From NCBI GenBank assembly GCA_945890885.1, contig CAMDDF010000008.1, positions 1 to 38,265 on the forward strand: a DNA stretch of 38,265 nucleotides, in the 5' to 3' direction. Both the position numbers and the translations under genes were made by a program. The notes beneath the pieces were generated by a model. That model did no database searches, was not told the DNA's origin, and saw nothing but the letters and a program-made list of their open reading frames with translations. Source of the stretch: Candidatus Kuenenia stuttgartensis (GTDB lineage Bacteria > Planctomycetota > Phycisphaerae > Sedimentisphaerales > CAMDDF01). This document shows, one piece after another, positions 1 through 18,796 of the stretch (position 1 is the first letter of the stretch; each line of letters starts with the position of its first letter).

Positions 1-162
1 TGGCATTATCTGCGTAGCCACTATTGGTCAAATAGAATTTATGCCGATTATGATGCCCTGAGAATCGCAGCAGTTGATGCCTGGCAGCAAGTTTGCCTTG
101 AACCTGCTATGCTCCGTTCGATTTGCCATTGCACATACATTGAGCGCAGTTATTTATTATAA
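1..162 (+). mobile_element. C-terminal end of an IS630-family transposase (partial, runs off the left edge)
   Basis: Frame 1 reads WHYLRSHYWSNRIYADYDALRIAAVDAWQQVCLEPAMLRSICHCTYIERSYLL*, which resembles the WHYLR.HYWSNR.Y.DYDAL C-terminus of IS630-type DDE transposases. Recognised by eye. Confidence 0.75.
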
Positions 163-902
163 ATGGTATCATACCCGGAATCAATAATTTCACGTCTGAA
201 CTTCTCTGGCTTTTCGTTCCATGATAAGTCATTGGAGAATATCGCAGCTTTCTGGAGACCTCTCAAAGTGCTCAACAAGCCATGAGAGTGCCAGCCCTTG
301 ATATCAGTAAGTGAATCAGCTATAAGCCCGCAGATATCCAGGTATTTTTTATTGCCGGTATGCTTAAACAACATTGAGAGCGGCTCAGTGATCCACAACT
401 GAATCGCCTGGTAGCCAGGCTTGAGAAATTCGGCCCATTTATCCTTGTTATTTACATGCCAGTTGCCGATACCAACAGCACAGTCGAGTGCCCTTTCATC
501 ATTTGTGAGTTCATAATACCTAATAAGGCCTGCAAAAAGTCTGTCACAATTTGCAAAAAGATGCTCTTCGTGTGCGATGGGCTCAAATGCACAGGCAAAT
601 TTGCCGATAAGGCCAGAGGGTTGCCTAAATTTTATAATGCGTTCGAAGAGTTCATGTACCAGATTATCTGATTGAGAAGCGATGCCTGAAGCACAGCTCA
701 AGAATTCAAGTGTTCTGCCACTCAGATCACCCGTCCACCAATCAGCATGCCTGGAAGAATCGCTGGGCCGTTGCAGATCCATGAGAATAAAATCCATGTT
801 ATCAAGCGGATAAGATCTCATTCGCCTAGAAACGAGATCGAGCCTGAATTTGAGTTGTGACTCACCAAGAACCGGCTTGCTGATAATCGCGTTACGAACC
901 AT
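150..902 (-). pseudogene. Truncated glycoside hydrolase, GH127/DUF1680-like N-terminal part, ending at the IS630 end
   Basis: 250-aa ORF whose stop lies inside the IS630 transposase 3' end. Motifs such as HEEHLFANCDRLFAGLIRYYELTND suggest an (alpha/alpha)6 barrel. Family assignment is tentative. Confidence 0.5.
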
Positions 903-927: not shown

Positions 928-3492
928 TCAGACCGCCTGTTCCTTTAACATTTTCTGTTTAACAGCTATTTTTGAGCAACTGGAAACTGTGACTATAACT
1001 TTATGACAGCTTCCATCGCCCCGGCCGCAAATAATATTATCGTCCAGAACATTTCCATTTAATTCTATTATAACCTTGCCTTTGCAAATGCCAACTTCTT
1101 TATTGATAAGTATTTCAAACATATCGCCTCTGAATTTCCTTGCAATCTTCACAGAGCTCCAGCTTTTGGGCAGGCACGGATCAATCCTTAAACCATCAGG
1201 CTGAGGCGTGATGCCAAGCATGTGCTGGAAAACATTTGTAAGGGTCCAGCACGCTGTGCCAGTTGCCCAGGAATGGGAACCTTCACCGGGATTGTCAGTT
1301 TCCGGTGCATAGATAAACTGGCAGGCAACATACGGTTCTATGAAGTACCTGTCGGGCAAAGACTCGTGAAGGGTTGTCGGAAGGGTCTGGCGAAGGATTT
1401 CGTACGCTTTGTCGCCACGGCCCGCTACACATTCAGCCCAGATACGCCAGCGGCTTGCGTGACAGAATACTGAACCATTCTCCTTGGTGCCAGGCGCGAA
1501 ACGGCTGATTATACCGACACGTTCATCAGGTTCATAAAATGGCGGGTAGAAGAGCAGGCTGCCATATGGGGTATCCAGATACGTATCAAAACTTTTCAGG
1601 ATTTCAGATGTGCGTGTCTTGTCGGCTATGCCGGTTATTATAGCAAAAGCGTTGGGATTAGACCAGATAGCGCCGCCCTGCTTCAACTGTTGGCTGGTTC
1701 CGATTATCCGACCGGTTTTATCGGAAGCACGCCAGTACCAGTTACCGTCCCAGCAAAGTTCGTTTACCTTTGCCTTGAGATCTCCTATTCTTTTTTTGTA
1801 CTTTTCGAGTCGCGCAAAGTCCTTCATGTATTCCATACAAGGATAGAACATTTCAATACACATAACTGCCCAGCCAGCAAGCAATACCGATTCAGAACAG
1901 AGTTTTTGATCTTCAAGTACGCGTCCTTGTGAATCTATTTTGGGGGCCTGACCGCATTGATTGAGGGCATCGTTCCAGTCTCCTTTAAGAATCAAAGGCA
2001 ACCCTCTTTCGGAAAACATCTTCCAGAACCACTCCGCACCCGCAACAGCATGTTCATAAATTGGCGAAGGCAACTTCTTACTTTTGCCAGCGATACAGGT
2101 TACAGGGTCAACCCATGCGGTTTTTTCATGCAGAATTGAAAAATCGTTTGTCTCATTGCAATAACTTGCAATTATGTAAAGCGGATTTAGCGGATCGTCT
2201 GAGTGGAACGTGCGCGCAGCATGCATATTCATGAAGTTGCCGCTGTGGGCATAATCACCGTTATCAAATTGCCAGATCATGATTTTATTCTTTATGAAAT
2301 CCCGGACCCAGTCGGGATGATGCGGCAGGCGAGAGACAGCATCCTGACATGCGTCGCGGATACCAAAATCATATATGCCGCTATAGCAATAGCCCGTATT
2401 GCGGTTCCACCAGGAAAGGATCGCTCCCTGATATTTGAACCAGATATTGATAAGCACGTTAAGATCAGGATCGGGAGTTTCTACCCATGGCGATGATATT
2501 ATGTTGCTCCAGTATTTTTTCAGATTATCAAAAGCAACTTGTGCTTTCGCGGGCGAATTATATTTTTCATACATATGTGAAGTTGATTTGTCACTGCTCT
2601 TTTCAGCACCTAGTACAAGAACGTACTCGACCGACTCGTCTGGTTCAAGAGTAAAACCGTTTCTAATGGAAAGGCATGAATCGCGTCCAACTGCGGCGGC
2701 GTTGTTCAATGCTGGCGTGTCCATGGCTGCGGGATTGGTTAGATCACGGTAGGCACCAAGGAACGAGTACCTCTCTCCCGTAAAACTATCTACGGGATGT
2801 GAACTATTGAGAAATATAGAATACGGAAATTCAGAATTATTAGAATCTGAATCCTGAGCCTGCCAGCCGTCTGTCTCCTTTACCCAAGTCGTCGCACGGT
2901 GCCATATGGTGTTATCCATATATTGCTGACGTTGCATTAGCGTGTAGAACTCGCGCCATGAGGTATCTTCATACCAGTTTCCAGGCGCTAGTTCAGCATA
3001 GCTGGTAGAGGTGATTCTGCGACGTCGGCCGGATTTATTGGTGAGTTTTATAGTCCATATAAGGCATGCATCTCCAACCTCAAACGTCCCAGCCTTGGAA
3101 GCATCGGGCATAGGTGTAAAATAGGTAATTTCCGAAGCGATTCCTAGATTTTCACTTACGATCTTGTTATAGCCCAGTCCAATATGACATCGCCAGTTTT
3201 GAAGTTTCTTTGTGGGAGGATAGCCGTTTGCGTTCCACCACTGCCCGGTTTCTTCGTCCCTGAGAAAGATGAACTTTCCAACAGTATCGCGGGGCACACC
3301 GTCTACATGCCATCTTGTGATTCGTCCGACACTTGGCTGACCTACATATGAATAACCGCCTCCGATATGCGAAGCAACAAAACACCAGTTGCCATTGGTC
3401 AATATATTCATCCAAGGACGATTAAGTAATGGTTCAGTTAATATGAATTCCTTACCATCTGCGGAATAATTGCCATATTTTGTTGTTTTCAT
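928..3492 (-). CDS. GH94-family glycoside phosphorylase (cellobiose/chitobiose phosphorylase-like)
   Basis: 854 aa. Contains GDWNDALN with the catalytic Asp context, YSGIYDFGIRDACQD, and GSVFCHASRWRIWAECVAGRGDKAYEIL, typical of GH94. Confidence 0.9.
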   Translation of the reverse strand: MKTTKYGNYSADGKEFILTEPLLNRPWMNILTNGNWCFVASHIGGGYSYVGQPSVGRITRWHVDGVPRDTVGKFIFLRDEETGQWWNANGYPPTKKLQNWRCHIGLGYNKIVSENLGIASEITYFTPMPDASKAGTFEVGDACLIWTIKLTNKSGRRRRITSTSYAELAPGNWYEDTSWREFYTLMQRQQYMDNTIWHRATTWVKETDGWQAQDSDSNNSEFPYSIFLNSSHPVDSFTGERYSFLGAYRDLTNPAAMDTPALNNAAAVGRDSCLSIRNGFTLEPDESVEYVLVLGAEKSSDKSTSHMYEKYNSPAKAQVAFDNLKKYWSNIISSPWVETPDPDLNVLINIWFKYQGAILSWWNRNTGYCYSGIYDFGIRDACQDAVSRLPHHPDWVRDFIKNKIMIWQFDNGDYAHSGNFMNMHAARTFHSDDPLNPLYIIASYCNETNDFSILHEKTAWVDPVTCIAGKSKKLPSPIYEHAVAGAEWFWKMFSERGLPLILKGDWNDALNQCGQAPKIDSQGRVLEDQKLCSESVLLAGWAVMCIEMFYPCMEYMKDFARLEKYKKRIGDLKAKVNELCWDGNWYWRASDKTGRIIGTSQQLKQGGAIWSNPNAFAIITGIADKTRTSEILKSFDTYLDTPYGSLLFYPPFYEPDERVGIISRFAPGTKENGSVFCHASRWRIWAECVAGRGDKAYEILRQTLPTTLHESLPDRYFIEPYVACQFIYAPETDNPGEGSHSWATGTACWTLTNVFQHMLGITPQPDGLRIDPCLPKSWSSVKIARKFRGDMFEILINKEVGICKGKVIIELNGNVLDDNIICGRGDGSCHKVIVTVSSCSKIAVKQKMLKEQAV

Positions 3493-3546: not shown

Positions 3547-5304
3547 TTAATCATTCAATCCAAAATGATCCTCATTAACCTTAAATGGATCTTCTCCAAG
3601 AATAGTTGGTATATCTGTTGAATTTCTACCTAACATCGCCATCGCTTTTCTCCATAATTCAGTGCGACGATATCTACAGCCGTGATGACGCTCCCACGGT
3701 TTGTAAGTTAAAATATGCAAGGCTTGCTCTGGGTTACCATCGTCAATTGCTATCTCAGCTTCTGCTTCACGTTTCCTGTAATCCCAATCAGGCCAATAAT
3801 TCAATATCGCTTTTCTATCTTCAATATTATTTAATTCACGCAAAATAGAATTAACTGCAACAAGTAAAGCTCCGTCAGGAATTTCTCTAATGATATTTTT
3901 AAGTCTATTCCAAGCGGCTTCTGGATTATTAAAGCCTTTCCAATCAATCATGGCCATAAGAGCCTCAACCTTCAGGCTTTTTGGAGAAATCTCAAAAAAA
4001 CTCATTGCCTCTGAGAATTTTTTATTAGCGTATAAATATAAAGCTGTTGAATAATTCCACAAACCGCCAACAACTGAAGATGCCCATTTTAAAGCATTTT
4101 CAAGTTCCAAACCGGTTGGCGGCCAAATATCATCAAGACAGCTTTGTTGCTCTAGGAGCCAATTTTTATCTTTATTTTCAAAAGCCTCAATTAGATTTTT
4201 CCAGAATTTCATAGAGGAAGATTCTATCTCTTTCTTTTCAGCGGAAAGAGCCTCTTTACCACCAAGCATATTTACAACTTTTTCAAAAGACAACCTTTTA
4301 CCATCGTCAAGCTCTCCTCTGGAATCCACTGGAACCCAAAACTCAATAAAAGAAAGTTCTTCATTTGGATTAAGATTGATGAATCCACTTTGAGTAGCAG
4401 GCACTCCGCTTTGAATCTCACAGCTTATTCCTCCATTTCTTGTCATCGCCAAAGTCCAGTCTGCTGTCGAACCAGTTTGGCCAAATGTCCACAATTTTTT
4501 CCCAGGCATCTCATGTGGATCAGATAGATGAAGAAGTCCCATATCGATATCATGATGATATATACCAAACCAATCGGATTTAGTTTCTTGCCAAAACAGC
4601 CCGCACATATTATTATAATTCTTGTGCCATCTGCGATCTATTCCATCAACAATCGGCCATTGTCCAGTTTTTGCCTCTTCGCTATGTTCAATTACTGATT
4701 CATATGGAAACACAAATTCAGTTCCTTCACCAACTGGTTGTGCCGCATTCGACCACCACTGAACATCCCGTGCGGTCTTCGTAGGATTCCAGCACTTTGC
4801 CGATAGACAGACTGCATTACTATTCGGAAACAGCTTTATCTCTGCCCGCCAATTCAAACCCCACATAATTTCTTTTTCACCAACGGCAATACCTTTACCG
4901 CCATTGGGACAGTCTATAATCTCATAACCAATTTCAGAAATTCCTGTCGGTGAATGTGCAATCGGAAAATTTAATTCTATTCCTAAACTTATAAATGCCC
5001 ATCTCATCGAAATTCTTGTGGGCAAAACAACATCGTTTTCATGAAGATATTTGGTACCATTCTTCACGTTCTCTATTTGCAAAATTCGGCCTCCAAGTTC
5101 AGGCAGAACGGTAACTCGGAGCATATCGTTTTCGAGCACAAGCGCTTTATATGTTTTATCCTGAGGTTCTTTAGCATTAAGCAGAAAACCATTGTATGGG
5201 TAAACGACCTCAGGATCAAAGATTGGAGGGAGTTTTGAACGCGGCACCATCGAGTATGTCGGGATCACAATTGTCTTTTCAAATACAGTTACATTTGATG
5301 GCAT
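3547..5304 (-). CDS. DUF5107 domain-containing protein
   Basis: 585 aa. VLENDMLRVTVLPELGGRILQIENVKNGTKYLHEN is characteristic of DUF5107; helical repeats at the C-terminus. Confidence 0.8.
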   Translation of the reverse strand: MPSNVTVFEKTIVIPTYSMVPRSKLPPIFDPEVVYPYNGFLLNAKEPQDKTYKALVLENDMLRVTVLPELGGRILQIENVKNGTKYLHENDVVLPTRISMRWAFISLGIELNFPIAHSPTGISEIGYEIIDCPNGGKGIAVGEKEIMWGLNWRAEIKLFPNSNAVCLSAKCWNPTKTARDVQWWSNAAQPVGEGTEFVFPYESVIEHSEEAKTGQWPIVDGIDRRWHKNYNNMCGLFWQETKSDWFGIYHHDIDMGLLHLSDPHEMPGKKLWTFGQTGSTADWTLAMTRNGGISCEIQSGVPATQSGFINLNPNEELSFIEFWVPVDSRGELDDGKRLSFEKVVNMLGGKEALSAEKKEIESSSMKFWKNLIEAFENKDKNWLLEQQSCLDDIWPPTGLELENALKWASSVVGGLWNYSTALYLYANKKFSEAMSFFEISPKSLKVEALMAMIDWKGFNNPEAAWNRLKNIIREIPDGALLVAVNSILRELNNIEDRKAILNYWPDWDYRKREAEAEIAIDDGNPEQALHILTYKPWERHHGCRYRRTELWRKAMAMLGRNSTDIPTILGEDPFKVNEDHFGLND

Positions 5305-5328: not shown

Positions 5329-6708
5329 TTAGACGATCTTCACTGATCCCAGCGAATACCAACCATCTTGCTCTTCTGTTTTTATAGCAAGCTTTACATC
5401 ACACTTTTTGGAAACACGGTGTTCAAGTGCGATACTGAGGTTATAATTTCCTTTAGCTATGTCTGAGGGTAATTGTATTTTGCCTATGAGATCATGTCTG
5501 CCCGGAAACAGGCTGCTGACAGCAATATTATCGAAAGAAGCCGTCTTTGTTTGTTTGCCTTCAAATGCCTTAAACCGAAGCGTCAGGTCATACCCACCAT
5601 AACACGGCGCAACACCTTTATTTTCCCATATCATCGGGATCTCAATTTGCTGCCCGGCCTGCATGCTGTCAGGGAAAACAATTTCCTTAAGCAGCAAACG
5701 ATATCCCATCTTTTTTGAAAAATCATCTATTTCAGGTCGCCACTCATCAGGGATGGGGAGAGATTTATTATTCATTATGGATACATGCATCGATAGCGCA
5801 TATGCAAAAATATAATCAATGCTCCATCCGTGATCATACCAGTATTTTATTTCCCATCCTGATTCAAAAGCTATAGGAGATTTTTTCCAAGCCTTATAAG
5901 CATCAGCGGCAATTATCTGCTGCGTGTAGTAATCCTCCATGTGGTTCCATATACGAGGCGGCTCTACCTGGTAATTGAAATAATCCTGCCTTAAGTCGCC
6001 CAGACAATCCGCCCGCCAGCCGGCCCCCTGAGACACAGCATAGGACAGGGCCTCTCTGTCAGCAACGGGTATCAGCAGCGGCGTCGACGGGAACGCACGA
6101 AGGTACATATCCACTATTCTCTTGCGATCACAAAACGGAGGAACGGGCACTGCACCAACATGCCATTCACCCCAGCGTCCGAATGTGCCGATGTCGATAT
6201 GATCGAGGTCGACATTTCCATCGTATCGGCCGCCAAACGCCGATATAAAATTCTCGGTCTTTTCCAAAAACAGAGGATCGCCGTAGTCCGGCTCCCACAT
6301 CTTCGGAGCAGCAGGAACCCATGGATCAACGCAGATGGCACCTTTAGGGCCAAGCTTGTAAAACCACTCAGGCACGCGATAATCTTTATTAACTTTCGTG
6401 CCAAGTTCGCCGAAAATCTTTTCACGCCATTGCGCGGCTATCTCCATTCCATCCATAGCGCTTACACGTAACGCGATTTTTTGACCATTCTGACGACCCA
6501 TTTCAAAGAGCCGGTCTATTACATCCCACCTGAACTGCCCTTCCTCGGGTTCAAGATCATCCCAATAAAAACGGAAGTAAGCAATCGAAGCCTCAGGATG
6601 ATTAATATTAATTTCATCACCATTAAAGCTATAAAAGGTAGTCCACCCCATTCCCGGATTAACTAATACATCTGAATTTACTTCTGGTTTTATTGTCACT
6701 AAGCCCAC
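5329..6708 (-). CDS. DUF4832-type (beta-barrel glycosidase-like) protein
   Basis: 459 aa. NPGMGWTTFYSF...YFRFYWDDLEPEEGQFRWDVIDRLFEMGRQNGQKIALRV followed by a C-terminal Ig-like domain. Confidence 0.7.
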   Translation of the reverse strand: MGLVTIKPEVNSDVLVNPGMGWTTFYSFNGDEININHPEASIAYFRFYWDDLEPEEGQFRWDVIDRLFEMGRQNGQKIALRVSAMDGMEIAAQWREKIFGELGTKVNKDYRVPEWFYKLGPKGAICVDPWVPAAPKMWEPDYGDPLFLEKTENFISAFGGRYDGNVDLDHIDIGTFGRWGEWHVGAVPVPPFCDRKRIVDMYLRAFPSTPLLIPVADREALSYAVSQGAGWRADCLGDLRQDYFNYQVEPPRIWNHMEDYYTQQIIAADAYKAWKKSPIAFESGWEIKYWYDHGWSIDYIFAYALSMHVSIMNNKSLPIPDEWRPEIDDFSKKMGYRLLLKEIVFPDSMQAGQQIEIPMIWENKGVAPCYGGYDLTLRFKAFEGKQTKTASFDNIAVSSLFPGRHDLIGKIQLPSDIAKGNYNLSIALEHRVSKKCDVKLAIKTEEQDGWYSLGSVKIV

Positions 6709-6806: not shown

Positions 6807-7589
6807 TTAGCGAACCCTTCTCTTCTTGATAAGAGTAGCAGCTCCACCGAGAATAAACAAGATTGTTGCTGGCTCTGGAACTTCGCTTACAGCGATGTTG
6901 AGGTTATCATAGATCACGTTGGTAACCCAGCCGCCATAGTTTGAAAAGGCAACGGTGCCGAATGCTCTTGCATTGATACTTGAATCCGTGTAACTGATGA
7001 TCTGATTGTTATTGAGATATACGACACTCTGAACAACGCCAGGTGCAGTCATTTCGGTGTGAATTTTCAGATTGTCGCGAGTATCCCAGGCTTTGCTAAG
7101 AGCAAGATTCTCAACCCTTGCCAGATCCACTATGTTACCAGAGTCATTCCTCTTCAGGTAAATTACACCCGATGGATGAACACCAAGAAAATAGGAAGCT
7201 GCACCAAACGGATAAGCAGTTCCACCTTTCATGTACTCAATAATCGCTTCACCTGTTCCAACCATCGAATAGTCAATCGATAGATCCATTTTCTGTGTGA
7301 AAAGATCCAAAGACAATCCGCCAATAGTCGCACAAGCCGTGCTCCATCCGGAGCAACCCATTACTCCCCAGGTGGCATCGATATACACATCCTGGCCGCT
7401 GTCGGTCTTAGTTTCAACCCAATTGTAAATCAAACCTGGGTCCTCAGTTGTTCCCAAATCTGTCCCTGACCGCGTCGTAAACGTGTCAGTGATGACAAAA
7501 TCGGCAATTGCGCAGGCATTCATTGCCAATACAACTACCACAACCATAAATAAATTTGATACTATTCTCTTCATTTTTCTTCTCCTCAA
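6807..7589 (-). CDS. Secreted PEP-CTERM sorting-domain protein
   Basis: 260 aa. N-terminal signal peptide and C-terminal VPEPATILFILGGAATLIKKRRVR. Likely start is internal (MKRIVSN...). Confidence 0.9.
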   Translation of the reverse strand: MRRRKMKRIVSNLFMVVVVVLAMNACAIADFVITDTFTTRSGTDLGTTEDPGLIYNWVETKTDSGQDVYIDATWGVMGCSGWSTACATIGGLSLDLFTQKMDLSIDYSMVGTGEAIIEYMKGGTAYPFGAASYFLGVHPSGVIYLKRNDSGNIVDLARVENLALSKAWDTRDNLKIHTEMTAPGVVQSVVYLNNNQIISYTDSSINARAFGTVAFSNYGGWVTNVIYDNLNIAVSEVPEPATILFILGGAATLIKKRRVR

Positions 7590-7684
7590 CTAAATTACAA
7601 CCTTTTTTTAACATTAAGAGCAACACACTCTTAATTTTTTTTAAACCTTTAGTACAAAACTTTCTCTCTAAAATTCAGAATCTG

Positions 7685-8539
7685 TTACGGATTGTAACTG
7701 CATGGTGCATTTGGATCCGTGCAGTCCAGCCAGTTCGCAGACATAAGTGCAAGGTCCGCCAAATCAACATAACAATCTTCAGTCAAATCGCCGACAGGAT
7801 ACGGATGATTAGTATCGCCGCAGAAACTTGGCAGATTATTTTCAATTGCACTGATTAGAAGATTATCATAGACTACATTGGTAACCCAGCCGCCATAGCT
7901 TGAAAAACCAACGGTACCAAATGCCCTTGCATTGAAACTTGAATCTGTGTAATTTATGATCTGAGTATTGTTGAGGTATACAATACTCTGGACAACGCCT
8001 GGCGAGGTCATCTCAATATGAATTCTCAGATTATCATATTCCGCTGGTGTCCAGGTTTTATTCAGCGTAAGATTTTCAACCCTCGCCAAGTTCACCATAT
8101 TACCCGAATCATTTCTCTTGAGGTAAATTACACCGGACGGGTGAATACCGACAAAATAAGTCGCGGCCTGAAAAGGATAACCGTTACTTCCTTTTAGATA
8201 TTCAATAATCGCTTCACCTGTTCCGACCATTGAAAAATCGAAAGAAATATCTACTGTCTGAACAAAAATATCCAGGTTCAATCCGTTGATATCTGCGCAC
8301 GCAGTAGAAAAACCCATACATTCCATTATACCAAAGGTGGACTCGAGATATACATCCTGATCGTTATCTGGTTTGCTTTCATACCAGTTAAAGATCTGGC
8401 CTGGAGCTTCAGTGGTGCCTAAATCTGTGCTGGAAGGCCTTGTGAACGTATCAGTGATGGTAAAGTCGGCCATCACCAAGGCATTCAACCCTAATACTGT
8501 TGCCGCAACCACGGCAAAACTTAATACTGTGTTCTTCAT
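7685..8539 (-). CDS. Secreted protein paralogous to the neighbour, with a C-terminal dockerin-like (EF-hand) repeat
   Basis: 284 aa. Ectodomain closely similar to 6807..7589. C-terminus GDLTEDCYVDLADLALMSANWLDC resembles a planctomycete dockerin-type calcium-binding repeat. Confidence 0.85.
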   Translation of the reverse strand: MKNTVLSFAVVAATVLGLNALVMADFTITDTFTRPSSTDLGTTEAPGQIFNWYESKPDNDQDVYLESTFGIMECMGFSTACADINGLNLDIFVQTVDISFDFSMVGTGEAIIEYLKGSNGYPFQAATYFVGIHPSGVIYLKRNDSGNMVNLARVENLTLNKTWTPAEYDNLRIHIEMTSPGVVQSIVYLNNTQIINYTDSSFNARAFGTVGFSSYGGWVTNVVYDNLLISAIENNLPSFCGDTNHPYPVGDLTEDCYVDLADLALMSANWLDCTDPNAPCSYNP

Positions 8540-8604
8540 AAAAAACTCCTCTCATAAATATAAACAATCAAAAGCCTTTTTTATTATTTAAGAGCAACAT
8601 GCCC

Positions 8605-11490
8605 TTAAATCGGTTTTTCAACTGCAAAAATAGCTACATCACCATAATAATCGCCCCAGCCCAATTCGAATTTCAATATATCATTTTCTATCTTATAGGA
8701 ATGGTCTGTAAGACATTTTGTAATTACATAGCCTTTAGGTAGTTTTACCTCCTGTGGGCCACCTGTAACACCAACAACTCCAAGCAGTCCGGAACCAATA
8801 ATTAGTTCATTATCATTCTCAAGTAGCGGATTCATCCCAGCTTCTCTGGCCATGTTTCTGATGAGGGTAGGACTAAGCGCACCAGGCGCACCAATCCAGA
8901 GAACTGAATAATCTTTTTTTCGACTTACAAGCATACCTGGAACTGATGTTCCTGCATACGTCGCCAGCACTTTGGCACCGGCAGAAGGGTCAGCAGAAGC
9001 ATTGCTTGCGAACCACTCCAACCCTGCACTGGTTGGACAATTACCAAGGAGAGTACCCTGCCTGATGCCTCTCAGCAGAGGATCGGCAACCGCAAGAGTT
9101 GCAAGTGATTTACCGGTTACAGAAGAGTCCTCATGTATATTAAAGCCGGTGATCTTTTGCGGATTTGACAAATCTCCAGCGGCAGCTACCCCGGGTAAAC
9201 ACATGAAAGCGACAACTCTATTTTGATTGCAGTATTTTGATTTTATCTTTTCCGCCTGTTCCAGTGTCATCGTAAGAGGGTTAACGAATATGGCTACCCT
9301 TGGCACAGTCAACTCTGGATTAAAAGCGTCTTGCATACAGAAGAATCGCACAGGCAAGCCCGTACAACCCCAAGGATACATTCCACCAAGACCAAGGCTC
9401 ATTGCATAATAAGGTTTTTCGACCGCACCAGAATTAAAATATCTGCCAAGCTGAACAAGGTGATTAGCTGCGTCCTCGTCGACGAACACACCAACATAAT
9501 CCTGTCCAAGACTTGGACTCTTGCCCACATATTCGGATATTTCCATACCCTCTTTAAATGTTTTCATCGTGTCAGGATGCCAGTACCACCCGCCCCACAT
9601 GTCCCACATGTGGAAACCTGCCCCGCCTGCGAACTCTCGGAGAAACGAAGCAAGTACCTGCCGTTTGAATTCTGCCGGAGATTTTGCGATGTATGCGTCA
9701 TCATAATCGAGCCAGGCATCAAGGCCGGACTTGGTATCTCGCAAATCAAGTTCCTGCACAGCAAGTTTGCCGTGGAGGACTGATCCTAACATTCCACCTC
9801 TGGAGATAAAATCAACATAGGGACTGTTGAGCATTTCATAGAAATCTCCGTGGGCCAGCGGATACGAAGCAGGAAGTGTAGGCCAGTACTGTCCACAGAG
9901 CAGCCTGCCATTTGTGCCGTCTTTTAGTCCGCGACAAAACGCGATCTGCCGCCGTGTATTGCTGATTGAGAGATAAGCGTTAAAGTCCGAACATTGGGCA
10001 GATTTGCCGTTATAGCTTAAAAGCGGGCCCTTGTTTTGTCCTGTACTTCGCATTGTGATATCCGGAATCGGAGCACTGGCAAAATCAGTTTGCATGTCCC
10101 ATGCCTGCCAAAGATTTGCGTCAGTTACATATTTTTCCTTGAGGTATTTACGGAAGCCGTTAAACATTGACTTGCTGTAATCGGCAAATTCCCATTCGTT
10201 AGAGAATATCCACTGTCCATCGGCGCCGCCATTGAGGTATGCACCTATAACTACCTTGCCTTCCGGAACGCTTTCAAGCCACTCGCCAAGAGCCTTGAGC
10301 ATCTTCGCACCATCACTGGCGAATTTTTCAGAATGTATCGAAGCTTCCCAGAATTCACCATCTTTGGGTTCCGCACCTCCGTACCGCGATACACGTGACC
10401 ATCCAGCTATACCTTTTTCACCCTTCGCATTGACATGCACGTCATCTGGATTTTCTGCTGCCCAGTCATCGTAGACATTGATCCATAGGTGCAACAGTAT
10501 GTACGCGTCTGGGCTTCTAGCTACCACGTAACGTATCGCCTCACGGAGAGGTTCAAAATTATATTTACCATCGCCCAGCCATATATTACATGGTGCCCCT
10601 GGCGTATCGCCGTATGGACCTGTTTTGACAGTAATAGTGTGAAGCTGAACACCGATATTACTCATATTACGATAATACCCGAATTCATGACCAGAATATG
10701 GCGCCATGTGGATGACAGGTTTTACAGGCTTTCCGTTCACAAGCATCTCAACCCGGTAATCCTGCCTTACAAGCGTAGCAAAGGCCTTTTCCCTGCTCTG
10801 AAACACTTCATTGATTTCATCCTGAGACTTAAGAACAGCCGCATCCTCATCCGTCTTTGCGGAATCAAAGTAATATCGCACAGCAGGCATACCTCGTCCG
10901 GCTTTTTCCTTTGGGCTCCAGAGTGTTTTTTCGAAATTGGGCTCGATTCGGATAGACTTGATCTTTACTTTTACCCGGTTCCCAAAAAACCTGATACCAG
11001 CCGAAACATATTTTGCATTTTGCGGCGGGTTCCAGCTTGCTCCGATACTTCTGAATAATCCTGGTCGAGTAGGAAGCGTACGGTCCTGCATGGAATCTTT
11101 GAACTCGATATTTCCTACTTCTATTTCGTTACTGTCGTAAAATTTAACAAATGGAATTATCTTTGAATCAAATTCAACATCCTGTATACCAAGTTCAAAT
11201 ACGATTCTACCTTTATTCTCATATCCACATTTAAACGCTATCTTTTCGGACGAAAACACTTGTGCCCCAAGCTCTTGCCCATTCCACGCAATGGACATCA
11301 TGCCGTTCTGCAATTTAATCGACAGATTCTCCTTGTTTGTATTTTGCCACAAATCGATCTTTGCAGTATTAAAATACACGGCCTCACTAGAAACCGGTGG
11401 CCCAATTATCTCCTCAGGCCCTGATTCACCTTTAACCGGAGCACATGAAAAATAAATAACCAATGCAATTAAAATTCTAACTTTGTACAT
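8605..11490 (-). CDS. Secreted GH42-like / beta-galactosidase-like glycoside hydrolase
   Basis: 961 aa. Signal peptide, TIM-barrel-like sequence (IGAYLNGGADGQWIFSNEWEFADYSKSMFNGFRKYLKEKY) and a trimerisation-like domain. Exact family uncertain. Confidence 0.6.
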   Translation of the reverse strand: MYKVRILIALVIYFSCAPVKGESGPEEIIGPPVSSEAVYFNTAKIDLWQNTNKENLSIKLQNGMMSIAWNGQELGAQVFSSEKIAFKCGYENKGRIVFELGIQDVEFDSKIIPFVKFYDSNEIEVGNIEFKDSMQDRTLPTRPGLFRSIGASWNPPQNAKYVSAGIRFFGNRVKVKIKSIRIEPNFEKTLWSPKEKAGRGMPAVRYYFDSAKTDEDAAVLKSQDEINEVFQSREKAFATLVRQDYRVEMLVNGKPVKPVIHMAPYSGHEFGYYRNMSNIGVQLHTITVKTGPYGDTPGAPCNIWLGDGKYNFEPLREAIRYVVARSPDAYILLHLWINVYDDWAAENPDDVHVNAKGEKGIAGWSRVSRYGGAEPKDGEFWEASIHSEKFASDGAKMLKALGEWLESVPEGKVVIGAYLNGGADGQWIFSNEWEFADYSKSMFNGFRKYLKEKYVTDANLWQAWDMQTDFASAPIPDITMRSTGQNKGPLLSYNGKSAQCSDFNAYLSISNTRRQIAFCRGLKDGTNGRLLCGQYWPTLPASYPLAHGDFYEMLNSPYVDFISRGGMLGSVLHGKLAVQELDLRDTKSGLDAWLDYDDAYIAKSPAEFKRQVLASFLREFAGGAGFHMWDMWGGWYWHPDTMKTFKEGMEISEYVGKSPSLGQDYVGVFVDEDAANHLVQLGRYFNSGAVEKPYYAMSLGLGGMYPWGCTGLPVRFFCMQDAFNPELTVPRVAIFVNPLTMTLEQAEKIKSKYCNQNRVVAFMCLPGVAAAGDLSNPQKITGFNIHEDSSVTGKSLATLAVADPLLRGIRQGTLLGNCPTSAGLEWFASNASADPSAGAKVLATYAGTSVPGMLVSRKKDYSVLWIGAPGALSPTLIRNMAREAGMNPLLENDNELIIGSGLLGVVGVTGGPQEVKLPKGYVITKCLTDHSYKIENDILKFELGWGDYYGDVAIFAVEKPI

Positions 11491-11512: not shown

Positions 11513-12199
11513 CTAACGTGTTACCAACCATGCAAAATAAGTATCACCCCACAGGCGACGCTCATCCCAGTATTTATCAAATTCCCGATAACCGCTTTCA
11601 ACATGAAGATCAGAAAACAAGACGCTCTTGCCGCGATCATGCGATGCTCCGAAAGATGCGGTTATTCCGTCGTAAACCAGGTAGTAATGATTATCCATAA
11701 TAAGGAAAGTAGTTTTTGGACTTTTAAGTTTATCAGAGCGGAAATATGCTGACGGCGGTGCATCCGCCCACAAATAGCGGTTTATCCCATAACTGTTGCC
11801 GAACCACGCATCACGGCTTGGCACCTTGAAACTCGTTGGGCACCTGAAAACTCCTAGCTGCCTGTCTGGATAATTACTGTTATCGCCAGTAAAGTTGCCA
11901 GGAGCATAAATATATTTGGAAGCGGCGGCTCCGCCAAGATAAGGAGCTAACTGGCCCTGCCAGTAGTTAATAGGACCAAACCAATTAATTTTATCAATCA
12001 TAGGAAAAATCTTATAATCGTTTGCGTACAGGTTAAAGCCAAGACCACAGCTGCGCATGTTTGAGAGGCACACTACTTTTTTTGCGGATTCCCTTGCCTT
12101 GTTAAGCGAGGGCATCATTATCGCAAGTAACAGAGCTATTATTGATATGACTACCAGCAATTCTACTAGCGTAAATGCTTTGTGTTTGGCTTTTGCCAT
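11513..12199 (-). CDS. Type II secretion pseudopilin-like protein (DUF1559-like), prepilin N-terminus
   Basis: AFTLVELLVVISIIALLLAIMMPSLNKARESAKKVVCLSNMR prepilin cleavage/methylation motif; GKSVLFSDLHVE near the C-terminus. Confidence 0.9.
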   Translation of the reverse strand: MAKAKHKAFTLVELLVVISIIALLLAIMMPSLNKARESAKKVVCLSNMRSCGLGFNLYANDYKIFPMIDKINWFGPINYWQGQLAPYLGGAAASKYIYAPGNFTGDNSNYPDRQLGVFRCPTSFKVPSRDAWFGNSYGINRYLWADAPPSAYFRSDKLKSPKTTFLIMDNHYYLVYDGITASFGASHDRGKSVLFSDLHVESGYREFDKYWDERRLWGDTYFAWLVTR

Positions 12200-12220: not shown

Positions 12221-13348
12221 TTATTGCATAAAACTTTGTTTTGAAACCGGCTGTACCAAACGTGGTTCAACCAGAATTTTCATGCGATGTTCATCCGGAT
12301 TCTTGATGCGCCACATCAGTTGTTCTACCGCCTTTTTGCCGATTATTTCCGCACCAATATCAATACTGACTGGTTTAGGATCAAGGCCGGCCAGAACTTC
12401 CGTTTCGTTATTACAGGATACTACGATTACATCTTTGCCAGGCTTGATGCCGCGACTGTTGAGTATCTGGTATAAATTGGCCGCCTGCATATCTGATGGA
12501 ACAAATATGCCGCGGGGTCTTGGGGATAGTTCTAAAAATCTTTCGACCAACTGCTCTACTATCTGAATATTTGAATCGATGCTTCGAATTTGCGATGTGA
12601 CTACATTTTCAGGCTCAAGCAGTTCAGCTTTAATATTTGATGCCATGCAATAAGACACAAACGCCCTCCTGCGAGCAGAAAAGGAAATGTGAGCGGGCTC
12701 TGAGTTGAGGAATACCAGATTATCAAAACCCAATCCTGCAAGATAATCCGCCGCCAGGAAACCTATCCTGTCTTCGTCGGAATAAACCTCATCCACTTCG
12801 AGATTCGGATTGGCATTTTGAGTCATAAACCAAACCTTTGGAATATCACTTATCTTGGCTAGTATTTCCGCTGACGGACACACGCCTTCCATCAAAATAC
12901 CATCGACACGTCCATCAAGTACGGCTGGCGGCAGTTGACTGGCGCGATTGACATATGCCATTGTCATATTTAACTTGTTTTCGGTCAGTTCATTACCTAT
13001 CCCGTGAATCGCGGTAGCCATAACCGGTGCATGTGCAAGCCGCGTATCCATGCCCATAAGCAACACGGCGACATTTTCGGTTCTGATGCCCTCATGCACC
13101 CTGGTTTTGGGACCCCTGCGGGGGACGCTTATTGCTCCTAGCCTTACCAGTATTTCCCGGTACCTATTGGCCGTTCTCGGTGCAAGGCCTCTGGTTCTTA
13201 CGAAGTTTGACAGTAATTCCGATATCTGGGCGGTGGTGATATATTCGAAACAGTTGGCTTCGATGATTTTGGTCTTGCCTATCGGATATTTGTTGCATGC
13301 CTCGATCAGTTCCGGCTTTACGGCCTTGCGGTACACCGTTTGGTACAT
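12221..13348 (-). CDS. LacI-type transcriptional regulator (periplasmic-binding-like effector domain, atypical N-terminal DNA-binding region)
   Basis: NVAVLLMGMDTR...VDGILMEG...DEDRIGFLAADYLAGLGFDNLVFL...PRGIFVPSDMQAANLYQILNSRGIKPGKDVIVVSCNNE is a LacI-type effector domain. The N-terminus lacks the classical LacI HTH. Confidence 0.8.
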   Translation of the reverse strand: MYQTVYRKAVKPELIEACNKYPIGKTKIIEANCFEYITTAQISELLSNFVRTRGLAPRTANRYREILVRLGAISVPRRGPKTRVHEGIRTENVAVLLMGMDTRLAHAPVMATAIHGIGNELTENKLNMTMAYVNRASQLPPAVLDGRVDGILMEGVCPSAEILAKISDIPKVWFMTQNANPNLEVDEVYSDEDRIGFLAADYLAGLGFDNLVFLNSEPAHISFSARRRAFVSYCMASNIKAELLEPENVVTSQIRSIDSNIQIVEQLVERFLELSPRPRGIFVPSDMQAANLYQILNSRGIKPGKDVIVVSCNNETEVLAGLDPKPVSIDIGAEIIGKKAVEQLMWRIKNPDEHRMKILVEPRLVQPVSKQSFMQ

Positions 13349-16141: not shown

Positions 16142-16887
16142 AAAAAGGTCCGCCAAAAGAAGAAAAAGGCGAGAGTGCTCCGCTTTGGATGATTTCTTTC
16201 TCGGATATGATATCGCTGATGATGGCATTTTTCGTGATGCTTTTGGCGATGACAAATTCAGACGGCGGCTCAAGTAGTGGAAATGGCGACGACGTTTTCA
16301 AGCGTTCAATAGCAGGCTTCAATAACTCCATCAAAAGTTTTGGAGTGCCGGAACTGTTCGGCAAAAAAGCTGATGGCGGCGGCAAAAAACAAATGAGACA
16401 TTACGCTATAGATTCCAATGAAAACGCTCAGACAGGCCAGAGAATTATTAGTTCTATTGAGGAACAAACCAAAAAACTTTTCAATCAACTCGACACTGAT
16501 GCGGAAACATCTCCATCAACAGTGAAAGGGACTCCGATCATATTCACAGCAACCCCCATTCTTTTTAACAAGAGCGATTATGAGTTGAAGGAAGAAGATA
16601 AAACTTACCTCAAGCAATTTTGTTCCGATATAAAAAGCTCTTCGCAATCAGGTAATATAACTATAGTTGTAATTGGCGCCGCTGAAGAAGATATGAACTT
16701 CAGGGACAAATGTATGGTATCTTCGCAACGCGCCAACGCTGTTGCCGAATACATAAAACAATATTTCCCAGATTCCTCCATAAACGTCGTTGCCTGGGGT
16801 ACAAACAACCTTTCAAGCTGGGCGAAAGATTCATCCTTCTCAGCAAACAAAACACATATTCTTTTATCAGTCCTTCGTAAGGATTAG
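16138..16887 (+). CDS. motB: MotB-like stator protein (paralog 2)
   Basis: APLWMISFSDMISLMMAFFVMLLAM plus OmpA-like domain (SSQRANAVAEYIKQYFPDSSINVVAWG). ATG overlaps the upstream stop (ATGA). Confidence 0.88.
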   Translation: MKKGPPKEEKGESAPLWMISFSDMISLMMAFFVMLLAMTNSDGGSSSGNGDDVFKRSIAGFNNSIKSFGVPELFGKKADGGGKKQMRHYAIDSNENAQTGQRIISSIEEQTKKLFNQLDTDAETSPSTVKGTPIIFTATPILFNKSDYELKEEDKTYLKQFCSDIKSSSQSGNITIVVIGAAEEDMNFRDKCMVSSQRANAVAEYIKQYFPDSSINVVAWGTNNLSSWAKDSSFSANKTHILLSVLRKD

Positions 16888-16905
16888 AGAATTTTAATGT
16901 CTTTT

Positions 16906-17568
16906 TTACCAATCGATAACTTCGCGGCCCACCCCAGCAAGGTTGGCTGCAAAAAAATCCGCCCCACTAAGCTGATCGACACTAAAACTTGATGTTATCG
17001 CCAGGCATTTCGCCCCTGCCGCTTTCGCCGCCTTAACGCCGCTGACAGCATCTTCAATAACAAGACATTGCTCGGCCCGCAGACCAATTTTCTCCGCTGC
17101 CTGAATAAAAACATCAGACCACGGCTTCTTACGCTCAACATCTTCGCCGCAGACAATTGCGTCAAACACGCCATTATCCAGCCCGATTTCTGCAAGGTTG
17201 CCTTTGACTTTCCGCATATCCGCACTGCTGGCAACTGCAAGCTTAAGACCGCGTGCCCTACATTGGCTAATGAAATCTTTCACGCCTTCGAGCGGTTGCA
17301 ATTCACCCTTAATCATCTCAAGATAAATATCGTACGTTCGCACCTTATCCGCTGGCATATTCAACTGACAGCCGTATTTTTCCGCAACGCCGCCGATAAA
17401 TCGGTCTTCGCCAGTGCCGATAAATGGCCGAAAGTCATCCGGCTGAACTTTATTGAAACCCTTCTCAGCAAACATCGCACAAGCCGCTTTAGCAATAAAT
17501 TCTTCGCTGTCGACAAGCACCCCGTCCATATCAAACAGGATGCCTTTACATTTTCCGTTTTGCTTCAT
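16906..17568 (-). CDS. HAD-superfamily hydrolase, beta-phosphoglucomutase-like
   Basis: ILFDMDGVLVDSEEF; VASSADMRKVKGNLAEIGL; KKPWSDVFIQAAEKIG; CLVIEDAVSGVKAAKAAGA. Confidence 0.92.
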   Translation of the reverse strand: MKQNGKCKGILFDMDGVLVDSEEFIAKAACAMFAEKGFNKVQPDDFRPFIGTGEDRFIGGVAEKYGCQLNMPADKVRTYDIYLEMIKGELQPLEGVKDFISQCRARGLKLAVASSADMRKVKGNLAEIGLDNGVFDAIVCGEDVERKKPWSDVFIQAAEKIGLRAEQCLVIEDAVSGVKAAKAAGAKCLAITSSFSVDQLSGADFFAANLAGVGREVIDW

Positions 17569-17745
17569 AACTTTCTCTTTTTCCAGTTTCTTACACTAAG
17601 CCTTGCGCCTGAATATAAACTTCCTTCGTCCATTTTAAAACAAAAAAATCCGCGGAATCCGCATCTTAAAAAAATCCGTATTTTTTTTCCACTTGCCCCA
17701 AAAAAACTTACACATTGAACAATCCACAATGCCTACTATTCATTT

Positions 17746-17775
17746 TGGGCAATTTTTAACGCTTAAGATTGCCCA
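17746..17775. promoter_or_regulatory. Inverted repeat TGGGCAAT-N14-ATTGCCCA upstream of the 17855 CDS
   Basis: 8-bp perfect inverted repeat (17746-17753 and 17768-17775). Confidence 0.4.
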
Positions 17776-17854
17776 TTCCTGACAAAAAATTGACTTTATC
17801 ATCTGTGCCTTTTACGGTATAATCACGCACTGAGATATTGGTTATGAGGTACTT

Positions 17855-18796
17855 TTGAATAAATTATCTTTTATTATAGTTTTGTTTATCTGCGGCGTAA
17901 GATTAGGATCGTCCTGCGGCTCTGAAGCTAAGGGTGGTGCTCCAGCCTGCGAACCAAACACCGTTTCATATACCGAAATCACAGACAGCAATACCGGGCC
18001 AACGATCCTGCTAGGCTACAACGAAAACAGCAAGAGCAACCCGATTTTTTCATTCATGTACTTTGTTCCGATGATTTCGCCGACAATGGTCGAGATGGAA
18101 ATAAGCCCCAACTGTCTGCAAAAAGGCCGATTTGTATCGCACAAAATTGAATACGATGGCGACAAATTCGAAGTAATAAGCGAATTTGAAATCAATGGCA
18201 CTGGCCATTACAAAAATTGCTTTGACCCTGAAGAAATAATCAAATGGAACATAAAGCACCGGAACGAAGGCGACAGGCTGACAAAAATTCTCGATTACAT
18301 AAAATTCGAGGGGCAAGCCTTTGGCAGACTTGAAATATCGGGAACGATTACGGATGGAATCAAGGAAGTCAAGCAGGTCAAGGCTTATTTTAACAATAAG
18401 GACACAAAAAGCCCTGTTACAATAGGAATTTACGACATTTATGCAAAAGATGGCGAGTTTAAGTACGCAAATGCCACCAACCGTACTGTTGTTAGAGTCA
18501 ATGCTCTTACTTTCCAGAAAAGCCAAGGCGAGCCCAAAATGGACATTGAAATTGCCAGCTTGTCTCAAGACGAAGACTGTGACAGCTTATGGGCGACACT
18601 AAAGGGTAAAATTGCCAATTTCTTCCTAAATCCCCTCGAAATAAATTCCGAAGGAAATCAGTCGATGCTGGAGTTTGGGTTGGCATTAACAGAGAAAAAA
18701 GAAAGTTTTACATTTACAAAAGCTAAAAATTTGAAACAAAATGAGGCAACCAGGCAACAATTTGCTCTAAAATCGTCAGATTCATCTGAAATTTAA
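17855..18796 (+). CDS. Secreted hypothetical protein (TTG start)
   Basis: 313 aa with hydrophobic N-terminal signal; no recognised family. Confidence 0.75.
   Translation: MNKLSFIIVLFICGVRLGSSCGSEAKGGAPACEPNTVSYTEITDSNTGPTILLGYNENSKSNPIFSFMYFVPMISPTMVEMEISPNCLQKGRFVSHKIEYDGDKFEVISEFEINGTGHYKNCFDPEEIIKWNIKHRNEGDRLTKILDYIKFEGQAFGRLEISGTITDGIKEVKQVKAYFNNKDTKSPVTIGIYDIYAKDGEFKYANATNRTVVRVNALTFQKSQGEPKMDIEIASLSQDEDCDSLWATLKGKIANFFLNPLEINSEGNQSMLEFGLALTEKKESFTFTKAKNLKQNEATRQQFALKSSDSSEI

Follow-up and report, generated by a model that had tools for sequence, protein, structure and literature searches.

The PEP-CTERM/exosortase (EpsH) system (Haft, 2006; PMC1569441) sorts proteins by a C-terminal tag, and homologous proteins are known to carry different sorting tails, with GlyGly-CTERM, LPXTG and PEP-CTERM, all membrane-anchored tags, exchanged across species (PMC3237569). 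Dockerins offer a second kind of C-terminal module. In Planctomycetota, non-cellulosomal cohesin/dockerin pairs have been proposed as a ‘planctosome’ (PMC6461901), and Limihaloglobus sulfuriphilus, which belongs to the same order as the genome considered here, encodes a single Coh2-Doc1-Coh1 scaffoldin together with 13 dockerin proteins (PMC11557425). A full-text literature search joining dockerin and PEP-CTERM with Planctomycetes or exosortase returned no paper, within a coverage from which subscription journals are mostly missing.

In the window (the whole 38,265-nucleotide stretch analysed, contig C8 of a 2.14 Mb genome that is 95.6% complete), two adjacent genes encode secreted proteins that share one ectodomain but differ in their tails, as the sequence-only reading had claimed. 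One tail is a PEP-CTERM tag; the other is a four-cysteine module with a single EF-hand. The pair shares with the exchange described previously (PMC3237569) that homologous proteins bear different sorting tails, whereas here they are tandem paralogs within one genome, the alternative is a folded module with a predicted calcium-binding loop, and double-tailed forms occur among other proteins of the group. The explanation we favour, with moderate confidence, is that an old duplication was followed by exchange of the retention module of one copy, the two tails being exchangeable surface-retention parts. The parts of the pair are as follows.

6807–7574, minus strand: gene 1 (P0001), a secreted 255-aa protein with a PEP-CTERM tail (ORF and translation)
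7503–7574, minus strand: predicted signal peptide of gene 1, about 24 residues, MKRIVSNLFMVVVVVLAMNACAIA (seen in the sequence)
6882–7502, minus strand: ectodomain of gene 1, residues 25–231 (71% identity to the gene 2 ectodomain)
6810–6881, minus strand: PEP-CTERM sorting tag of gene 1, VPEPATILFILGGAATLIKKRRVR (NCBIfam TIGR02595; genome-wide PF07589 search)
7614–7634, no strand: hairpin TTAAGAGCAACACACTCTTAA upstream of gene 1, common to the copy at 8588–8608
7685–8539, minus strand: gene 2 (P0002), a secreted 284-aa protein with a contracted-dockerin tail (ORF and translation)
8468–8539, minus strand: predicted signal peptide of gene 2, about 24 residues (seen in the sequence; signal-peptide heuristic)
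7841–8467, minus strand: ectodomain of gene 2, residues 25–233 (alignment to gene 1)
7688–7822, minus strand: four-cysteine, single-EF-hand C-terminal module of gene 2, C240–P284 (tail profile; PDB dockerins; AlphaFold2)
7754–7789, minus strand: predicted 12-residue calcium-binding loop, D251-L-T-E-D-C-Y-V-D-L-A-D262 (EF-hand position rule D1, T3, D5, D9, D12; alignment to PDB dockerins)
8588–8608, no strand: second copy of the hairpin, ahead of gene 2; it overlaps the stop codon of the neighbouring 961-aa gene

The likely start of gene 1 is the ATG at 7574, which follows a GAGGAG and lines up with the ATG of its partner at 8539; the start at 7589 is a mechanical TTG start. All of the ectodomain motifs quoted by the sequence-only reading are present in the pair. 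The two proteins are identical at 157 of 238 aligned columns (66%; BLASTP, E = 1e-117), their mature ectodomains are 71% identical, and the similarity breaks off abruptly at codons 231–233, past ...YDNLNIAV in one and ...YDNLLISA in the other, which fixes the breakpoint that had been proposed for mapping. A 21-base element (plus strand TTAAGAGCAACA..C(T/C)CTTAA) stands ahead of each gene. Since this hairpin is common to both, the duplicated unit included flanking DNA, and since no third copy with fewer than three mismatches occurs in the whole genome, the pair arose by one tandem duplication and not by chance. The idea that the element is a genome-wide repeat was rejected on the same search; its stem is predicted, and its folding energy does not stand out from that of shuffled sequences. 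Independent origin of two genes that are merely alike, the alternative that the sequence-only reading had set against duplication, is excluded in practice by the 66% identity, the shared private hairpin and the adjacency of the genes. The duplication is old, because dS is about 1.7 (near saturation); with dN at 0.19, dN/dS is about 0.11, which points to purifying selection on both copies. Near the junction, third-position identity seems higher at residues 180–220, a possible trace of gene conversion that is not significant (permutation p = 0.68).

The pair lies in a run of minus-strand genes that, by their sequence similarities, reads as a saccharide-utilisation cluster. The other genes of the run are as follows.

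12221–13348, minus strand: LacI-family-like regulator
11513–12199, minus strand: DUF1559/pseudopilin protein
8605–11490, minus strand: 961-aa secreted protein with weak GH42 similarity
5329–6708, minus strand: DUF4832 protein
3547–5304, minus strand: DUF5107 protein
928–3492, minus strand: GH94-family protein
150–902, minus strand: GH127-like protein

The regulator is of the LacI type, periplasmic-binding-like, and its N-terminus has no DNA-binding domain by Pfam. The GH42 similarity of the 961-aa protein, whose gene is the first one upstream of the pair, is sub-threshold only.

Because its neighbours read as a saccharide-utilisation cluster, a glycan-binding role for the ectodomain of the pair is plausible. 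The ectodomain itself is an orphan. It has no Pfam, NCBIfam or PDB match, and no convincing relative turned up among 397 class and 161 order genomes, contigs of named genomes or 1002 ORFs of retrieved loci, sets that contained no other genome of the host’s family. AlphaFold2 reached a pLDDT of 37 from a two-row alignment, and the LamG/concanavalin-like fold raised earlier as a question finds no support here. A kinship with proteins of two other loci (L161 and L099), suggested by a shared YxDNL/YWDDI end, was discarded when a profile gave no significant match. Since the ectodomain has no relatives in the searched genomes, the swap within the pair can be neither dated nor polarised, and the general pattern of exchange described below is taken from other families, not from the window pair.

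The tail of gene 1 reads as an ordinary PEP-CTERM tag, with a PEP motif, a transmembrane or hydrophobic stretch and a basic end. It scores 18.0 bits against the NCBIfam model TIGR02595 (PEP_CTERM; cut-off 16) and 16.2 bits against Pfam PF07589, under the 20.7 cut-off of that model. A search of the genome with PF07589 gave 12 PEP-CTERM matches over the Pfam cut-off and 21 at E ≤ 1. The exosortases that the sequence-only reading had proposed to look for are present as two EpsH-family genes (E = 4e-58 and 1e-55), and 153 of the 161 genomes of the order have an exosortase. Gene 1 therefore resembles the described system in its tag and in its genomic setting and is itself ordinary; only its dockerin-tailed twin stands out. 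Elsewhere in the genome (L086:1544–3322, contig C149), two adjoining genes end in nearly identical PAPGAI(I/V)LAGIGTGIIGWLRKRKDA tails, a PEP-CTERM variant with PAP.

Gene 2 ends in CGDTNHPYPVGDLTEDCYVDLADLALMSANWLDCTDPNAPCSYNP, and its second module, of about 45 residues, starts at C240, about 10 residues earlier than had been quoted. The tail has a single calcium loop with its helix where a full dockerin has two, and it carries four cysteines and the signature CGDxxHPYPxGDxNxDC. The consensus of related tails is CGDxxHPYPxGDxNxDCxVDLxDLAxLAxxWLxCTxPxC, a pattern favoured by the gathering of these tails through similarity to the gene 2 tail; gene 2 matches the tail profile, among whose rows it is itself, with iE = 1.3e-22. 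When a 47-tail profile was compared with the PDB, solved type I dockerins were matched from E = 1.8e-4, and other EF-hands stayed under significance, mostly over the calcium loop and the next helix. AlphaFold2 on the tail alignment (pLDDT 85, core 92–95) predicts a loop followed by one helix (28–36), which is half a dockerin. Foldseek matched this model to one PDB entry only, the NagH dockerin complex, with an rmsd of 0.4 across 20 residues, at an E of 9.9 that alone is no evidence. Pfam Dockerin_1 (PF00404) matches 22 of 29 tails weakly, below cut-off, and gene 2 itself is unmatched; NCBIfam models match 0 of the 29. Some planctomycete proteins are labelled ‘GC-type dockerin domain-anchored’ by NCBI, and the NCBIfam scan gave no match to a model of this type among the 29 tails. 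The tail of gene 2 is thus homologous to dockerins, which it resembles in the calcium loop pattern and helix, the sequence match to solved structures and the C-terminal position, yet it forms no complete type I dockerin: it has one repeat and not two, adds four cysteines and HPYP, falls below the cut-off, and occurs in a genome with no detected cohesin. The dockerin-like tail proposed by the sequence-only reading is upheld in its homology and predicted loop–helix and fails in the second EF-hand repeat.

From its predicted loop, the tail would bind calcium. The cysteine before HPYP and the cysteine of the loop are both present in 67 tails, both absent in 16 and mixed in 11; after the tryptophan (WL), two cysteines are found in 50 tails, none in 37 and one in three. 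Because the cysteines are gained and lost in pairs, disulfides C240–C256 and C273–C280 are likely.

The single-repeat four-cysteine tail is probably a contracted two-repeat dockerin, since in its relatives both repeats survive, or the second does so in degenerate form. A protein at L099 (CGDTEHPYPAGDLNQDCYVDFEDVDVFAGQWLASGCVTPSWCSGADMSTDGNVKFNDFAILAANWFDCTDPNPPCSYNP) has two full repeats and the HPYP signature, with the same beginning and the same CTDPNPPCSYNP end as the single-repeat tail; further two-repeat forms are found at L176, L180, L253 and L294, degenerate second repeats at L169, L172, L173, L175 and L182, and single repeats at L165–L168.

A search of the order with gene 2 matched 99 of 161 genomes at E ≤ 1e-5, nearly always on the tail or just before it. 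In 56 distinct tail-bearing genes, the module ends no more than 10 residues from the stop. Its carriers are otherwise unrelated and include FGE-sulfatase-like, BsuPI-like, polymorphic-membrane-protein-like and DUF3466 proteins as well as several without a family. A signal-peptide heuristic, which is loose, was positive for 49 of 52 tail proteins versus 322 of 673 others. In a phylum sample of 392 genomes, a 29-row profile (E ≤ 1e-6) matched every one of the 11 that belong to the order of the host (the host genome among them) and two more from its class, but no others. Carriers with a name are MAGs of Sedimentisphaerales, Anaerohalosphaeraceae and other Phycisphaerae; the four-cysteine module is almost confined to this order, most likely Sedimentisphaerales. 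Pilin-like neighbours were considered as an export machinery of the tail genes and rejected, the association being too weak (5 of 56 tail genes versus 35 of 927 in the background).

A classical cohesin–dockerin complex (a cellulosome or ‘planctosome’), in which the tail docks on scaffoldin cohesins, would agree with the dockerin homology of the tail, with the cohesins found in nine of the 99 tail-bearing genomes and with the scaffoldin and dockerin proteins of L. sulfuriphilus (PMC11557425). Like the window gene, the ‘planctosome’ (PMC6461901) and the L. sulfuriphilus system are non-cellulosomal cases from Planctomycetota, the latter from the same order, but both rely on cohesins. The host genome, at 95.6% completeness, has no match to PF00963 at E ≤ 1, a single Pfam model by which divergent cohesins may go undetected, and the cohesin-like partner that the sequence-only reading had proposed to look for did not appear. 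Across the order, cohesins were found in 10 of 161 genomes, and 90 of the 99 tail-bearing genomes have none that Pfam detects. With these counts and a single repeat, a classical complex is very improbable, and the putative partner of the contracted dockerin would most likely be something other than a recognisable cohesin.

The scarcity of cohesins would also suit a module with no targeting function, a calcium- and disulfide-stabilised cap left over as a relic of a dockerin without its cohesin; the single repeat, the contraction series and the position at the very end of the protein agree with this. However, the strong conservation of HPYP, GD.N.DC and D..A...W on unrelated proteins, with many copies per genome, is hard to account for without a partner, and repeated substitution of a mere cap for PEP-CTERM at one junction would be surprising, so that we regard this explanation as unlikely.

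Such replacement is general and recurrent in the group. The host genome has a second swapped tandem pair (L070:13026–15094, contig C53), FGE-sulfatase-like and 69% identical, with a single EF-hand repeat on one copy and PEP-CTERM on the other. In another genome (G152), a PEP-CTERM protein (L161, 8927–9754) lies beside one with a four-cysteine tail (9839–10759; 37% identity), and a second PEP-CTERM protein (L137, 15731–16459) lies beside one with an EF-hand tail (16523–18235; 51% over 217 aa). A non-adjacent swapped pair with 70% identity is found at L099. The fullest record comes from family B, which occurs in 143 of the 397 genomes of the class (host copy at C6:12008–12973). Past a conserved ...EIDAxADV junction, always the same one, the 70 members sampled for their tails carry a dockerin or contracted dockerin (45), PEP-CTERM (20) or both (5), labels that were set by pattern and corrected by eye for L260, L282 and L288. 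The double-tailed members (L178, L179, L187, L188 and L263) have the dockerin repeats first and then PEP-CTERM. On a maximum-likelihood tree of the ectodomain only, whose bootstrap is not fully settled, the dockerin-only and PEP-only labels require nine changes each (bootstrap range 8–10), of which four to five are forced by well-supported branches. Three of the five double-tailed proteins have a PEP-only member as their neighbour on the tree, which makes it plausible that tail exchange passed through a double-tailed stage.

The sequence-only reading had proposed that each tail takes the shared domain to a place of its own. These places could be, for instance, an exosortase-anchored envelope and an extracellular calcium-dependent complex, with labour divided between capture near and away from the cell. 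Purifying selection on both window copies (dN/dS about 0.11) would be expected if their uses differ, both tail systems coexist in the genome, and swapped tandem pairs recur. Against this, orthologs in family B carry either tail or both, and because the tails replace each other at one junction and occur in series, exchangeable or additive retention is suggested. Moreover, in all eight loci examined, a dockerin-tailed family B gene is directly beside a small PEP-CTERM gene, as if both products were used together and needed at one place. A gene pair conserved in eight loci (L072:6168–8556, L145, L147, L154, L156, L157, L158 and L164) has the gene of a small PEP-CTERM protein directly upstream of that of a four-cysteine-tailed one, and in some a pilin-like gene comes next. 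Two destinations are thus not supported by these comparisons and seem rather unlikely; exchangeable holding at the surface fits at least as well. The two window copies may still have specialised.

Under the favoured explanation of exchangeable retention, an exported ectodomain gene in a saccharide-utilisation cluster was duplicated in tandem long ago, and the C-terminal retention module of one copy would have been exchanged afterwards. The product of gene 1 would be exported through Sec, after which one of the two exosortases would recognise it and cut it at PEP; it would then stay at the cell surface or within the exopolysaccharide layer. The product of gene 2 would rely on its one calcium-binding loop and helix, braced by the two likely disulfides, and would most likely be held at the surface in a calcium-dependent manner through its non-cohesin partner. 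Both tails would, most likely, hold the exported protein at the cell surface. Within the class, the two kinds of tail would be interchangeable parts: some orthologs have PEP-CTERM, some a dockerin and some one behind the other, with double-tailed proteins as plausible swap intermediates. A further step is to see the four-cysteine contracted dockerin as a distinct sorting or retention tag of Sedimentisphaerales, with a non-cohesin receptor of its own, equivalent in function to PEP-CTERM and exchangeable with it in evolution; this is a tentative proposal that falls short of probable.

Dockerin-type modules are common in the Planctomycetota genomes searched here, mostly without a recognisable cohesin. 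Two proteins that share an ectodomain but not a tail, in a group whose orthologs swap tails repeatedly, form a natural controlled comparison, by which it becomes testable whether a cohesin-free dockerin is equivalent to an exosortase tag as a surface-retention device or the two lead to different places. The short signature of the contracted module may also allow its partner genes to be found by phylogenetic profiling, as exosortase was.
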